Notes under the pieces: generated by a model
Database searches by the model: none
Told to the model about the DNA's origin: nothing
The model's input: only the letters and a program-made list of their open reading frames with translations
Shown: in pieces, positions 33,092 through 51,045 of the stretch
How positions within the stretch are numbered: the first letter of the stretch is position 1
How the letters are laid out: every line of letters starts with the position of its first letter
Program-made: the position numbers and the translations under genes
NCBI RefSeq assembly: GCF_011305415.1
Contig: NZ_JAANOQ010000007.1
Location: forward strand, 1-64,000
DNA length: 64,000 nucleotides
Source: Flavobacterium bernardetii
GTDB taxonomy: Bacteria; Bacteroidota; Bacteroidia; Flavobacteriales; Flavobacteriaceae
Direction: 5' to 3'

Positions 33092-34366
33092 ATGGCTAAA
33101 TTTCTATTTTTTATAACCGTTTTTAATACCTTCTTTGGGTTTTCACAAACGGTGAGTACTGTTGCTGGTACAACTTCAGGTTATTTAGATGGGTCAGTTA
33201 ACATAGCCCAATTTAAAGACCCTTTAGGCATTTGCACTGACAATAATGGCAATATTTTTGTTGCAGATAGGTCTAATAACAGAATTAGAAAAATTGACGC
33301 TTCGGGTACTAACATGGTTACAACGATTGCAGGTAGTGGTGTAGAGGGTTACGCAGATGGCATAGGCACTTCTGCTATTTTTGGGGCACCCACTGGAATT
33401 TGTATTGATGCTTTAGGTAATTTATATGTTACAGATTTCTGGAATTTTAAAATACGTAAAATTACTCCAACTGGCGTAGTTACCACACTGGCAGGGAGCA
33501 CGCAAGGATTTGCAAATGGCAATGGCACAGCTGCACAATTTGACTACTTAGAACAAATATGTATTGATGCCTTAGGCAATTTGTATGTTGCCGATGCAGG
33601 AAATAGCAAAATAAGAAAAATTACACCTAGCGGCACGGTTACAACAGTAGCTGGCACAACATCTGGATATTTAGACGGGGTAGGTACTATAGCAAAATTT
33701 GACTATCCAAATGGTATTTGTATTGATGGAAACAATAATTTATATGTTGCAGAATATTTTAGCCACAAAATAAGAAAAATTACACCAACAGGTGTAGTAA
33801 GCACCGTAGCAGGTAGCACTTGGGGTTTTACTAACGGACAAAGTACTACCGCACAATTTAGATATCCTACAGGTATTGGTAGAGATACAAGTGGTAATTT
33901 ATATGTTACAGATTCAGGTAATAATATGATAAGGAAAATAACACTTAGTGGTATGGTAAGCACCTATACGGGTAGTGAAAATAATGGCTATTTAGATGGT
34001 AGCTTAAATAATGCCTTATTTAGTAATCCATGGGCAATACATATTAAAAATAATGTAATATACGTTTCGGAAGGAGGTAGCGATAAAATCAGAAAAATTA
34101 CTAGTAATTTAAGTTCTGAAAATTTTGAGTCTGACAATTTTAAACTATTTCCAAACCCAACCACTGGTGCTTTTACAATTGAAGTACCAAATACAACTAT
34201 CAGTAAAGTAAGTATTTATGATGTGTTAGGCAGAATGGTTTTTACAGAAAATACTAATTCTTCTTTTTCCTACACGTTCCAAAACAAATTTTTAAACAAG
34301 GGTATGTACAAAATTGTTGTTACTACAGAAAAAGGCAGTTTTACTAAAAGTTTACTCGTAAATTAA
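33092..34366 (+). CDS. NHL-repeat secreted protein with T9SS type A sorting domain
   Basis: This cell-surface or secreted propeller protein has a signal peptide (MAKFLFFITVFNTFFGFSQ). At least five NHL-type repeats follow (about residues 20-335), each with the pattern VSTVAG..., D-G-x-x-x-A-x-F, P-x-G-I-C-I-D, N-L-Y-V-A-D and KIRKI. The C-terminal sorting domain (about 345-424) reads LFPNPTTGAFTIEV, VSIYDVLGRMVF and a final KSLLVN. This marks it for export by the type IX system. Ligand unknown. It sits alone between two copies of a 47-bp terminator repeat, as if inserted. Confidence 0.88.
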   Translation: MAKFLFFITVFNTFFGFSQTVSTVAGTTSGYLDGSVNIAQFKDPLGICTDNNGNIFVADRSNNRIRKIDASGTNMVTTIAGSGVEGYADGIGTSAIFGAPTGICIDALGNLYVTDFWNFKIRKITPTGVVTTLAGSTQGFANGNGTAAQFDYLEQICIDALGNLYVADAGNSKIRKITPSGTVTTVAGTTSGYLDGVGTIAKFDYPNGICIDGNNNLYVAEYFSHKIRKITPTGVVSTVAGSTWGFTNGQSTTAQFRYPTGIGRDTSGNLYVTDSGNNMIRKITLSGMVSTYTGSENNGYLDGSLNNALFSNPWAIHIKNNVIYVSEGGSDKIRKITSNLSSENFESDNFKLFPNPTTGAFTIEVPNTTISKVSIYDVLGRMVFTENTNSSFSYTFQNKFLNKGMYKIVVTTEKGSFTKSLLVN

Positions 34367-47182: not shown

Positions 47183-48712
47183 TTACAATTGAACTTTTTC
47201 AAAGATATCATCTTCAAAACTTAAGCTCACAACTTGGTTGTTATTTATTTTAAAAGAAAGCACACTTCCGTTATTTGCAAATTGTACACGAATCGTATTT
47301 TCATCTTTAAAAGCTGTAGCAATAGTTGAAATATCACCCATTTTTACAATTAAACCATTGGAGTTTTGTTCAATTTTAATGGTTCCAGCAAACGAATTGA
47401 AAAAAGTTCCACAATACAATTTTTTCTCTAGCGAAAGTTTCCAAGGTCTTTCATTATTTTTTTTTACGTGATTCGCAAAACCAGATTGCATAGCAGGAAT
47501 TTCACTAACCAATTTATCCAGCTTTTTATAATAAACTTGTTCATCAAATTGAGCGCCTTCTAAATAATAATCATAAATAAATTCTTCAATTAAAAACGCT
47601 ATTCTTTCACCCAATAATGATTCGTTAGCAAATACTGCAATTCCAAGATTATTTTGACGCATCATAGCAACTTTAGAATAACTTCCAGGATACCCACCTG
47701 TATGATATTCAATCTGGTTCCCTTTGTATGTGGCACTTCTCCATCCAATTCCGTAACCCGTATCTTTAATTAATTCTCTTTCTCTATCGGTTTTTGCAGT
47801 AGCAAATAATGCATTCTCAATTATTTTTTCAGAAACTACTTGTTTACCATTAAATTTTCCTTTGTTTTGAAAAAACGACAACCAATTTCCAGCATCTTTT
47901 ACAGAACTGATCATTCCACCAGCAGAATGCATCATATTGTCTGTTTTAATTATTTCTTCGACATACTTCACCGAATCATTATAAGCAAATTTATAAGGTA
48001 TTGCCAATTTCCATTTAGATTTGTAAGCATCAGAAATGTAAGCACTAGTTTTATCCATTTGCAAAGGAGTAAATATTTTTTCTTTCAACAAAACTTGCCA
48101 ATCCAAGCCGTATTCTGCTTTTAATAAAAGGGTAAAAATATTATAGCCCAAATTGTCATAAGAAAAAGTTTTTCCTTCTGTCCTAACGGTTGTTTTTTCT
48201 TCAAGAAGCATTGTTAATGTTTCAAGAGATTTATCTCCAGTATAGGCTTCTCTCCATGTTATGTAACCGTTTTCAATTCCACTAGTATGATTTAGTAATT
48301 CTCTAATAGTTATATTCTCAAAAATTGCATTATTTTTAAGATTTTTAAAAGGCTTGTAATTTGTTAGACTCTTATCTAAATTAATTTTTCCTTCAGACTC
48401 AAGGATTAAAGCTAATAATCCTGTAAAAGATTTAGTAGTAGAGGCAATATAAAATGAGGTATAGTCCTTTACTTTTTCTGATTTTGAAAAATTTGAATAG
48501 CCATATCCTTTAACTAGAATAGGCTTACCATCTTTTACAATTGCAACTCCTAATCCGGGAAGTGAAGAACAGGATTCCATTGTTTTTTCAATAAAACCAT
48601 TTATTTTTTTAGAGTCTAATTTCTGAGCATTTGATGAGATGCTTATAAGTGCAATTGCAGCAATTGCAAAACACTTTGTAATCTTCTGTTTTTTGATTAA
48701 TGTATTTTTCAT
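47183..48712 (-). CDS. Serine hydrolase, beta-lactamase/class C family
   Basis: A secreted penicillin-binding-protein-fold hydrolase. It has a signal peptide (about residues 12-30, ending SISSNAQ) and then the catalytic domain with SxxK as STTK (Ser91, Lys94). YxN is present as SYDNLGYN and the third motif as HTGGYPG. A C-terminal lipocalin-like region (about 410-509) follows. Such enzymes are esterases, D-amino-acid peptidases or weak beta-lactamases; the substrate cannot be told. It lies downstream of the CPBP protease gene in the same direction but has its own palindromic promoter region. Confidence 0.85.
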   Translation of the reverse strand: MKNTLIKKQKITKCFAIAAIALISISSNAQKLDSKKINGFIEKTMESCSSLPGLGVAIVKDGKPILVKGYGYSNFSKSEKVKDYTSFYIASTTKSFTGLLALILESEGKINLDKSLTNYKPFKNLKNNAIFENITIRELLNHTSGIENGYITWREAYTGDKSLETLTMLLEEKTTVRTEGKTFSYDNLGYNIFTLLLKAEYGLDWQVLLKEKIFTPLQMDKTSAYISDAYKSKWKLAIPYKFAYNDSVKYVEEIIKTDNMMHSAGGMISSVKDAGNWLSFFQNKGKFNGKQVVSEKIIENALFATAKTDRERELIKDTGYGIGWRSATYKGNQIEYHTGGYPGSYSKVAMMRQNNLGIAVFANESLLGERIAFLIEEFIYDYYLEGAQFDEQVYYKKLDKLVSEIPAMQSGFANHVKKNNERPWKLSLEKKLYCGTFFNSFAGTIKIEQNSNGLIVKMGDISTIATAFKDENTIRVQFANNGSVLSFKINNNQVVSLSFEDDIFEKVQL

Positions 48713-48743: not shown

Positions 48744-48770
48744 GAAAGTAGACAATAATTATTGTCAAAA
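48744..48770 (-). promoter_or_regulatory. Serine hydrolase promoter with a 16-bp perfect palindrome
   Basis: GACAATAATTATTGTC (48751-48766) is a perfect palindrome. On the minus strand it lies exactly between TTTTG (48770-48766) and TACTTTC (48750-48744), a near match to TAnnTTTG. It looks like a repressor site in a promoter spacer. Confidence 0.5.
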
Positions 48771-48783
48771 CTAAAAAAAACAG

Positions 48784-49551
48784 TCATATAGCGCTGGCTT
48801 CGAGACCAAAATCACCACCAGTTATCCATAATTTCGAAGTAGTAAAACTTGGAAGAAGTAAACTTAGATCTGTATTTCCACTCACTCCAAATCCCAATAT
48901 AGTTCCTTGAGTTAAATTTGCCATAAAGTGCAATCCGATGGGCATTGCTAAACTTTTAGTTTTCAAATAAACTAAACCAAATAAAATGGATGCAATAAAT
49001 ATATTAATTGAAGCAAACATTTTTACAACACCTATCATTCCTGGATTGTTAATATGAGTAAGTAAAAACAAACCCGCTATAATGATTTGTGTTGGCCATA
49101 TTCCTAACCCCTCTTTAAATCGTTGAAATAGAAAACCTCTAAAAAATAATTTTTCTGCTAAGGCAACACTAAAACAAAGCGCAAGCCCTGATAGCAATGT
49201 TGATACTGAAAAAACATTTAAATCCCAGTTGATATAACCTAAAAAAGTTAATACTAATGCGGGTAAAGCCATTAACACTGAACCAATTCCAATTCCAAAA
49301 AAAAGTTCTTTAAACCAACAACTATTGATTTTCCCAACCAAATTAGCTATGGAATCTTTTCTTAATAATTGACAAATTACTGAGGCAATCAAAATAAGTA
49401 TCGTTTGATGCGTCATTGTTATTTCAAAAGAAAATCGATTGGCTAAAAAAATTAGCGGAAACAAAAAGGAAGCTAAAACAAGAAAGAAAATTAACATCCA
49501 CCAACCATTTCTTAATTTCTTCTCAGAATTAAAAGCAATATTTTTAAACAT
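48784..49551 (-). CDS. CPBP family intramembrane metalloprotease
   Basis: A membrane protein with about eight helices (255 residues) of the Rce1/CPBP (ABI) family. Motif 1, usually EExxxR, reads E133-K134-LFF-R138, so the second Glu is Lys. Motif 2 is FLLTH and motif 3 is HFMAN. Members cleave membrane proteins or help bacteriocin immunity; some are involved in releasing anti-sigma factors, which fits the neighbouring ECF sigma gene. It is 31 bases downstream of the small DUF6249-like gene, in the same operon. Confidence 0.85.
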   Translation of the reverse strand: MFKNIAFNSEKKLRNGWWMLIFFLVLASFLFPLIFLANRFSFEITMTHQTILILIASVICQLLRKDSIANLVGKINSCWFKELFFGIGIGSVLMALPALVLTFLGYINWDLNVFSVSTLLSGLALCFSVALAEKLFFRGFLFQRFKEGLGIWPTQIIIAGLFLLTHINNPGMIGVVKMFASINIFIASILFGLVYLKTKSLAMPIGLHFMANLTQGTILGFGVSGNTDLSLLLPSFTTSKLWITGGDFGLEASAI

Positions 49552-49582: not shown

Positions 49583-49927
49583 TTAGTTATCAAGTTTTTT
49601 AGTCATATTATAACCTACAAAAAGCGCAGCTCCAGCCGTTGTGAAAATTGTTGCAGGGTATAAGGCGCCTTGATCTAAAGAAGTATAAGTTGAAAGCAAT
49701 AATGCTACAAAAACACCCAATCCAATACCCATTAATAATAATGATAAATTTAGCAGTAGTATTTTAGAAAATGAGTTTGAACCTTTGTTGTTCCCCATAA
49801 AAATACTAGCATCTATGCCTTTTTCTATAAGAGCTAATCGCTCTCTGTTTCTTGTTGATAAATAAAGGTAAAAAATACCGAAAACTACTAAGAATAAGCT
49901 AATTGGAATTAAAATTTCTTCGTTCAT
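49583..49927 (-). CDS. Small membrane protein, DUF6249-like
   Basis: A 114-residue protein with three hydrophobic segments (about 5-23, 55-80, 90-107) and an intervening RNRERLALIEKGID motif typical of a small Bacteroidota family assigned from memory to DUF6249. Function unknown. It is the first gene after the leftward ECF-like promoter and probably co-transcribed with the CPBP protease gene. It may be an envelope stress sensor or effector. Confidence 0.72.
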   Translation of the reverse strand: MNEEILIPISLFLVVFGIFYLYLSTRNRERLALIEKGIDASIFMGNNKGSNSFSKILLLNLSLLLMGIGLGVFVALLLSTYTSLDQGALYPATIFTTAGAALFVGYNMTKKLDN

Positions 49928-49977: not shown

Positions 49978-50004
49978 GACGACAAGAGTTCCATTTTGGT
50001 TACA
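49978..50004 (-). promoter_or_regulatory. Leftward ECF-sigma-like promoter
   Basis: On the minus strand TGTAACC (50004-49998), 16 bases, and CGTC (49981-49978) give the classic ECF -35/-10 layout. The transcription start would lie near 49971, about 44 bases before the small membrane protein gene. Confidence 0.6.
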
Positions 50005-50045
50005 GAAATAATAAAAATATTTTTTTTTTAAATATTTCTGTAACC
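49998..50045. repeat. 13-bp inverted repeat carrying the two -35 elements
   Basis: GGTTACAGAAATA (49998-50010) and TATTTCTGTAACC (50033-50045) are perfect complements separated by 22 AT bases. The flanking GACGAC (49978) and GTCGTC (50060) are placed symmetrically, 14 bases outside each arm. Confidence 0.9.
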
Positions 50046-50065
50046 TATTTTGACTTTTAGTCGTC
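50039..50065 (+). promoter_or_regulatory. Rightward ECF-sigma-like promoter of the sigma factor gene
   Basis: TGTAACC, 16 bases, then CGTC (50062-50065). The start codon is only 11 bases after the -10 element, so the mRNA would be nearly leaderless. The motif is the mirror image of the leftward promoter. Confidence 0.6.
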
Positions 50066-50075
50066 TTACAGTTAT

Positions 50076-50666
50076 ATGGCTAATATAGAAGATCAACATT
50101 ATATAAATTTAATCCGTAACGGAAATCAAAATGCATTTACTGTATTAGTTGACCGTTATAAGAATTTGGTTTTTACATTGGCTTTAAAAATACTAAATAA
50201 TAGAGAAGAAGCAGAAGAAGTAGCACAAGACACTTTCATCAAAGTATACAACTCGTTAAACAACTTTAAAGGTGATTCTAAATTCTCCACATGGATTTAT
50301 AAAATAACCTACAACTCTTGTTTAGATCGTTTGAAAAAAAAGAAAAAAGAAAAAACAGTTTCTTATTTAGAAGATTTTGACGAGCATCAGGCAAAGGCTA
50401 TTGAAACGATTTTAGATTCAATTGATGAAAATGAAAGAAATAAAGCCATCCAAGATTGCTTGGAAGAACTTCCTCCTGAAGATGCCTTTTTATTAACGTT
50501 GTATTATTTTGATGGGAAATCGGTTGATGAAATTTCAAAAGTTATTAATGCAAGTACAGATAATGTTAAGGTAAAATTATTTAGAGTTAGAAAAAAAGTA
50601 GGAATTATTTTTAAGAATAAATTAGAACCAGAAATATTAGATTATTATGAAAGTGGACGAAGATAA
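50076..50666 (+). CDS. ECF-type RNA polymerase sigma factor
   Basis: An alternative sigma factor of 196 residues. Region 2 (about 20-90) shows FTVLVDRYKNLVFTLALKIL and the DTFIKVYNSLNNFKGDSKFSTWIYKI block. Region 4 (about 125-180) shows ELPPEDAFLLTLYYFDGKSV, then the HTH ASTDNVKVKLFRVRKKV. No region 3 is present, which defines the ECF group. Its last 20 bases overlap a small two-helix membrane protein that probably acts as its anti-sigma. The ECF-like promoter upstream suggests autoregulation. Confidence 0.93.
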   Translation: MANIEDQHYINLIRNGNQNAFTVLVDRYKNLVFTLALKILNNREEAEEVAQDTFIKVYNSLNNFKGDSKFSTWIYKITYNSCLDRLKKKKKEKTVSYLEDFDEHQAKAIETILDSIDENERNKAIQDCLEELPPEDAFLLTLYYFDGKSVDEISKVINASTDNVKVKLFRVRKKVGIIFKNKLEPEILDYYESGRR

Positions 50667-51045
50667 ATATTTAGAAAAATTGGTTGATCATATAATGAAA
50701 GATCAAACTTTAGAGGCACCTTCTATCGATTTTACTTCAAAAGTAATGGCGCAAATGACCGCTGCTAAAACAAATGAAGTCAAAGTATATAAACCCTTAA
50801 TTTCAAAACCTATTTTGATAGGTATTATTGGATTTATTATTGCTTTGATCGCCTACTGTGCTTTAAATGAACAGCCAAACACTGGTAATCAGCAGTTAAC
50901 TTATATCGATTTTAGTTTGCTTTATGATAATTATTTTTTGAAATCAATACGCTTTTCAAAAATAACTATTTACAGTGTTGTAGTGGCTACTGCCATGTTT
51001 TTTATACAAATTTCATTTTTAAAAAATCATTTCAAAAAAGTCTGA
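50647..51045 (+). CDS. Small two-helix membrane protein, putative anti-sigma factor
   Basis: A 132-residue protein overlapping the sigma gene by 20 bases. A cytoplasmic-looking N-terminal part (about 1-55, EDKYLEKLVDHIMKDQTLE) is followed by a helix (about 56-74), a short loop and a second helix (about 104-123). No zinc-binding HxxxCxxC motif is seen, so it is not a ZAS-type anti-sigma. The role is inferred only from position, overlap and topology. Confidence 0.7.
   Translation: MKVDEDKYLEKLVDHIMKDQTLEAPSIDFTSKVMAQMTAAKTNEVKVYKPLISKPILIGIIGFIIALIAYCALNEQPNTGNQQLTYIDFSLLYDNYFLKSIRFSKITIYSVVVATAMFFIQISFLKNHFKKV

Follow-up and report, generated by a model that had tools for sequence, protein, structure and literature searches.

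Two predicted back-to-back promoters in Flavobacterium bernardetii, lying in a 64,000-nucleotide stretch of DNA that was analysed as a whole (the window), are very probably both recognized by the ECF sigma factor whose gene lies next to them. One precedes the sigma gene itself, and the other precedes a divergent gene for a small DUF6249 protein, a membrane family without an assigned function; the arrangement predicts a regulator for this family and offers a setting in which it can be tested. Support for the sigma factor reading both promoters comes from the steady distances of the promoters to their genes, from their joint variation among relatives, and from a matching residue change in the sigma factor. 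The argument is built on where the elements lie, on their mirror arrangement and on their conservation, not on bare motif counts.

Predicted promoters and genes of the locus

Motif search and conservation place predicted ECF promoters of the form TGTAACC-N16-CGTC at 50039-50065 on the forward strand, before the sigma gene, and at 49978-50004 on the reverse strand, before the DUF6249 gene. As originally noted, the motif search finds this pattern on both strands with equal N16 spacing, arranged around a 13-bp inverted repeat that is exact: GGTTACAGAAATA is found at 49998-50010 (forward), where the left arm contains the -35 box of the DUF6249 promoter, and at 50033-50045 (reverse), where the right arm contains that of the sigma promoter. 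No further copies of the repeat sequence were found in the window, and shuffles gave 0. By eye, GTCGTC at the -10 end is common to both sites. The sigma-side box ends 10 nt before the sigma ATG (50076) and the DUF6249-side box ends 50 nt before the DUF6249 ATG (49927). Allowing a gap of 15-17, the TGTAACC-CGTC motif has three matches in the window against 0.01 expected from 100 dinucleotide-preserving shuffles; the third, at 33296-33322 (reverse), was taken as chance and lies inside an ORF of the other strand (33092-34366). A sigma-70 scan gave no excess (19 vs 24.6).

The sigma gene (50076-50666, forward) encodes 196 aa with Pfam sigma regions 2 (24-91) and 4 (124-174) only, joined by a linker of about 32 residues, which places it among ECF (group IV) sigma factors as defined by regions 2 and 4 only and a linker of <50 residues. 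The AAC-type -35 and CGT-type -10 that also mark this class are found, conserved, in its own promoter. The sigma gene is overlapped by an ORF (50647-51045, forward) whose 132-aa product has two predicted TM helices and is a probable anti-sigma factor. It has no Pfam match, and its structure model is helical with low confidence (mean pLDDT 61.1). The divergent DUF6249 protein (49583-49927, reverse; 114 aa) matches PF19762 with 54 bits against a Pfam cut-off of 33. Its structure model has three helices at low confidence (mean pLDDT 68.7), while a hydropathy scan marked two, and an R..ER...IEKG stretch after the first helix is invariant or nearly so across 30 sequences. Further along the same strand, a gene for a CPBP-type (Rce1-like) membrane protease (48784-49551, reverse) is probably read with DUF6249 in the window, and a PF00144 serine hydrolase gene (47183-48712, reverse), for which no motif copy of its own was seen, is a possible further operon member. 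A perfect palindrome, GACAATAATTATTGTC, lies at 48751-48766, 39-54 nt upstream of the hydrolase ATG (48712); it is the single copy in the window at <=2 mismatches, with 0.11 expected, and could be a regulator site.

Conservation of the divergent pair

Conservation was followed in the groups used by the search, here called genus, family and phylum. Among the 150 genomes of the genus set, 35 hold a sigma match at E<=1e-30 and 34 hold DUF6249 over the cut-off, all 34 being among the 35 that bear the sigma factor; the odd genome, G123, has a sigma match of only 36% identity and no DUF6249 over the cut-off. In the 30 best-scoring genus sigma loci, the window included, DUF6249 is always divergent from the sigma gene, GTAAC-N18-GTC always stands before both genes, and a relative of the probable anti-sigma factor is always present. 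The gap between the sigma and DUF6249 genes ranges from 146 to 563 bp in these loci, and the DUF6249 box lies 34-55 nt from its own gene. In many of the enlarged intergenic regions (L008-L033, by eye), TTGGAATTT-like words are repeated between the two promoters. The idea that the sigma factor drives the opposite gene is supported for DUF6249 by this comparative evidence. The CPBP gene was rejected as a conserved target: in loci that reach some 1.5 kb beyond the sigma gene, relatives of it occur in 2/30, namely the window and one of its 29 relatives. As side observations, the entire module is found in G136 at C1:1282095-1283310, and in G103 (C1:2431619-2433012) a second DUF6249-like match, just under the cut-off, adjoins a second sigma match of 36% identity; this second pair is probably a paralogous module.

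The pairing can be followed well beyond the genus, with DUF6249 over the cut-off in 97 of 199 family genomes and 84 of 296 phylum genomes sampled. We assembled 90 DUF6249 loci from the best-scoring 30 each of the genus, family and phylum searches; these loci are best-scoring rather than random and are related to each other, and the genus 30 overlap the sigma loci described above. An ECF sigma gene, searched for with a profile built for this analysis at E<=1e-5, is present within the roughly 3.3 kb fetched in 86 loci and absent from 4, and it is divergent from DUF6249 in 79 of the 86 (7 are not divergent). The exact motif stands on both sides in 63 of these 79 divergent loci, on neither side in 16 and on one side alone in none; by group, both sides have it in 29/30 genus, 23/25 family and 11/24 phylum loci, and shuffled intergenic regions gave it on both sides in 0.00 loci. 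A membrane-protein ORF lies immediately 3' of the sigma gene in 73 of the 79, two others being cut off by the locus edge and none being found in four; in L036, the relative of the probable anti-sigma factor has weak RseA_N and zf-HC2 matches below the cut-off. Seventeen loci of distant sigma relatives give a different picture: DUF6249 is divergent with both motifs in four (L034, L035, L036, L040), lies on the same strand in two (L037, L039), and was not found by the same search in 11. The pairing is therefore a property of a single branch of ECF sigma factors, not of ECF sigma factors at large. In L037 (213-1569), DUF6249, the ECF sigma gene and a third small gene lie on one strand with 4-base overlaps, as one operon instead of a divergent pair.

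Motif counts and the extent of the regulon

Searching the 3.39-Mb genome for TGTAAC-N17-CGTC gives three matches, all in the window, and the reversed control also gives three, so the motif is not over-represented genome-wide. The core GTAACC-N17-GTC gives six sites against 26 in the reversed control; four lie inside long frames. Only the two locus sites fall outside long frames. No wider regulon was seen with this exact core, a search that could miss weaker targets because only the exact core was used, and the regulon in the window's genome seems to be this one locus.

In relatives, motif sites are concentrated at the module. In 33 sigma-bearing genomes, TGTAACC-N15-TCGTC occurs at 70 sites (46 in the reversed control, summed by hand), of which 62 are at the module and 8 elsewhere. 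A comparison set of 35 genomes, in which G085 (with an ATC-type module) and G123 are not clean negatives, has three sites, all in long open frames. Five of the eight stray sites fall within open frames 333-1023 nt long (in stretches of 1027 nt), two lie upstream of a PF00144 hydrolase gene and one lies in a decayed module copy. With a looser search of five genomes, further sites outside the module and the hydrolase were mostly inside long frames. This motif-associated hydrolase gene is present in 10 of the 33 sigma-bearing genomes, and in 6 of the 10 a GTAAC-N18-GTC site closely precedes it, at 32-34 nt from the ATG by our own count; on this evidence, some relatives seem to add a PF00144 serine hydrolase to the regulon. 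In G061 the sigma gene is followed after 507 nt by the start of the hydrolase gene. No match at 1e-40 links the PF00144 gene of the window to the motif-associated hydrolase, so the two are not close relatives. The decayed copy (L148; G098:C15:3500-7000) has a sigma-like stretch with 11 stops, what by eye are remnants of DUF6249, one intact TGTAACC-N16-CGTC site and an adjoining PF00144 hydrolase gene.

Joint variation of promoters and sigma factor

The loci that depart from the exact motif are informative about how the two promoters change. Fifteen of these 16 carry the identical variant on both sides, the exception being L094, which has no clear assignment; the variants are ATC for GTC (4), GAAAC for GTAAC (8), GCAAC (1) and a spacer longer by one base (2), from a pair search that gave a small bonus to equal spacing. 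When each side was picked independently, both sides yielded a pick in 72 of 79 loci (7 were lost), and the types agreed in 68 and disagreed in 4, compared with a shuffled mean of 51.2 and 0/5000 shuffles as high. Agreement was 30/30 in the genus (shuffled 28.1), 23/25 in the family (19.4) and 15/17 in the phylum (6.0). Ten of the 16 altered loci were picked independently, and 9 of these agree. Because the shuffles ignore kinship, changes on the sigma tree are a fairer measure of joint variation, and the tree holds at least 8 changes of promoter type, of which 3 concern ATC and 2 the longer spacer.

Residues of the sigma factor can be matched to these promoter types. With L094 excluded, all 74 sigma factors of the GTC type have D, T or S at residue 84 and all 4 of the ATC type have Y or G, and no other well-filled column tells the two types apart; random sets of four tips gave a separating column in 1 of 2000 draws, or in 18 of 2000 when the tips were taken from outside the genus. 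Judged by residue spacing (W73/I77/N80/D84 against W81/I85/N88/N92), a correspondence of our own making, residue 84 matches N92 of Mycobacterium tuberculosis sigma-H, and an alignment with Escherichia coli sigma-E agrees by eye. In the excerpted account of sigma-H, N92 bonds to the -11 G:C pair and an N92A change has a modest effect only (PMC6411747). This pair is the G of the GTC triplet. Residue 166 is V or I in 69/69 sigma factors with a T-type -35 and A, T or N in 9/9 with A or C types, a separation that is mostly one deep split on the tree. The matched promoter and sigma variants form a natural series in which the sigma residues that determine promoter specificity can be tested.

These results bear directly on other explanations of the promoter pair. 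Another ECF sigma factor might read one or both promoters, or several might share them, a reading that could draw on 20 first-look ECF-like candidates in the window's genome and on the overlapping ECF regulons suggested in the excerpted study of Flavobacterium psychrophilum (PMC9723704). It is nonetheless unlikely, given that the two promoters vary jointly and in step with residue 84 of the neighbouring sigma factor, and that the motif hardly occurs in comparison genomes lacking the module (3 in 35).

The exactness of the 13-bp inverted repeat could instead point to an operator for a dimeric regulator and not to a promoter pair, and a spacing of 24-36 bp between the two -35 boxes is indeed seen in 24 of 25 family loci outside the genus. 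However, 23 of 30 genus loci have the boxes 143-456 bp apart, with each half keeping its distance from its own gene, and conservation extends to the -10 boxes, outside the repeat arms. The operator reading, which we rejected because the halves are far apart in most of the genus, is thus very unlikely. The mirror geometry is better regarded as incidental than as the working unit, because the separation of the arms varies while each box holds its distance to its own gene.

It is also highly improbable that the sigma factor reads its own promoter only, with the DUF6249 site a relic or silent: autoregulation of the sigma gene is the common case (PMC8103513, in excerpt), but the DUF6249-side site is kept with the sigma-side site in 63/63 loci and shows the same variants. 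Chance occurrence of a short pattern, which would fit the equal genome-wide and control counts (3 vs 3), has a negligible probability in the face of fixed-position conservation in 30/30 genus loci and 34/49 other divergent loci.

A predicted near-leaderless sigma mRNA

The original prediction that the sigma mRNA would have almost no leader gains support from comparison, as the first in-frame sigma ATG lies 8-10 nt past the box in 30/30 genus loci. With the sigma-H numbering, in which the triplet's last base is at -9 (PMC6411747, in excerpt), the 10-nt gap in the window would leave a leader of about 2 nt. The distance is 9-14 nt in 24 of 25 family loci, with one at 2; in the phylum, 13 of 23 loci have 10-15 nt and the others have 2 nt, 17-67 nt or no ATG found. 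A near-leaderless message is therefore predicted from sequence for the window and its genus, though not throughout the deeper relatives. In F. psychrophilum, leaderless messages make up about 5.5% of those with a mapped start, according to the excerpted study (PMC9723704), and the prediction across the genus stands out against this figure.

A proposed circuit and its relation to known systems

The conserved motif, the co-variation and residue 84 all favour the original proposal that the sigma factor drives itself, and positive autoregulation is predicted. In the mechanism we propose, the 132-aa two-helix membrane protein would keep the sigma factor inactive at the membrane until an envelope or membrane signal releases it. 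Free sigma factor would then transcribe its own operon, giving positive feedback through a near-leaderless mRNA, and would also transcribe DUF6249. As the only other conserved output, DUF6249 could be either a product with a protective role or a component of the sensing complex that provides feedback; that it works together with the sigma/anti-sigma pair is a guess. More tentatively still, and with some doubt, the module may be a widespread closed circuit, in which the core regulon is the sigma factor, the anti-sigma factor and DUF6249 only, DUF6249 acts in the sensing complex or as a feedback brake, and promoters and sigma contact residues have been re-tuned together several times.

Several known systems can be compared with this module, for which no description was found in the open-licence papers searched. 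In the Dma/Das system of Bacteroides thetaiotaomicron (ECF21), as excerpted, a Bacteroidota sigma gene likewise adjoins its anti-sigma gene, and the system's own operon is among the most changed genes on loss of the anti-sigma factor (PMC13088901). Dma, however, has a long tether and a C-terminal outer-membrane barrel, features absent from the 132-aa protein with two predicted TM helices and a low-confidence helical model, and DUF6249 is not mentioned in the excerpted description (PMC13088901). The SM6 promoters of F. psychrophilum share the CGT at -10 and have one ECF sigma/anti-sigma operon among their targets; compared by -10 box and targets only, SM6 differs in covering secretion genes and others (PMC9723704, in excerpt). 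The sigma factor described here may well fall under an ECF group number that already exists. The principle is ordinary, since AAC and CGT boxes, a neighbouring anti-sigma gene and autoregulation are listed hallmarks of ECF sigma factors (PMC8103513, in excerpt). Like the autoregulated pairs of ECF sigma and membrane anti-sigma factors outlined there, this module has an AAC-type -35, a CGT-type -10, regions 2 and 4 only, a short linker, a probable membrane anti-sigma factor as the next gene and predicted self-activation. It differs from them, as far as the excerpt goes, in its conserved divergent DUF6249 gene, its apparent one-locus regulon in this genome, its predicted near-leaderless sigma mRNA, and the co-variation of promoters and a sigma residue across the phylum.
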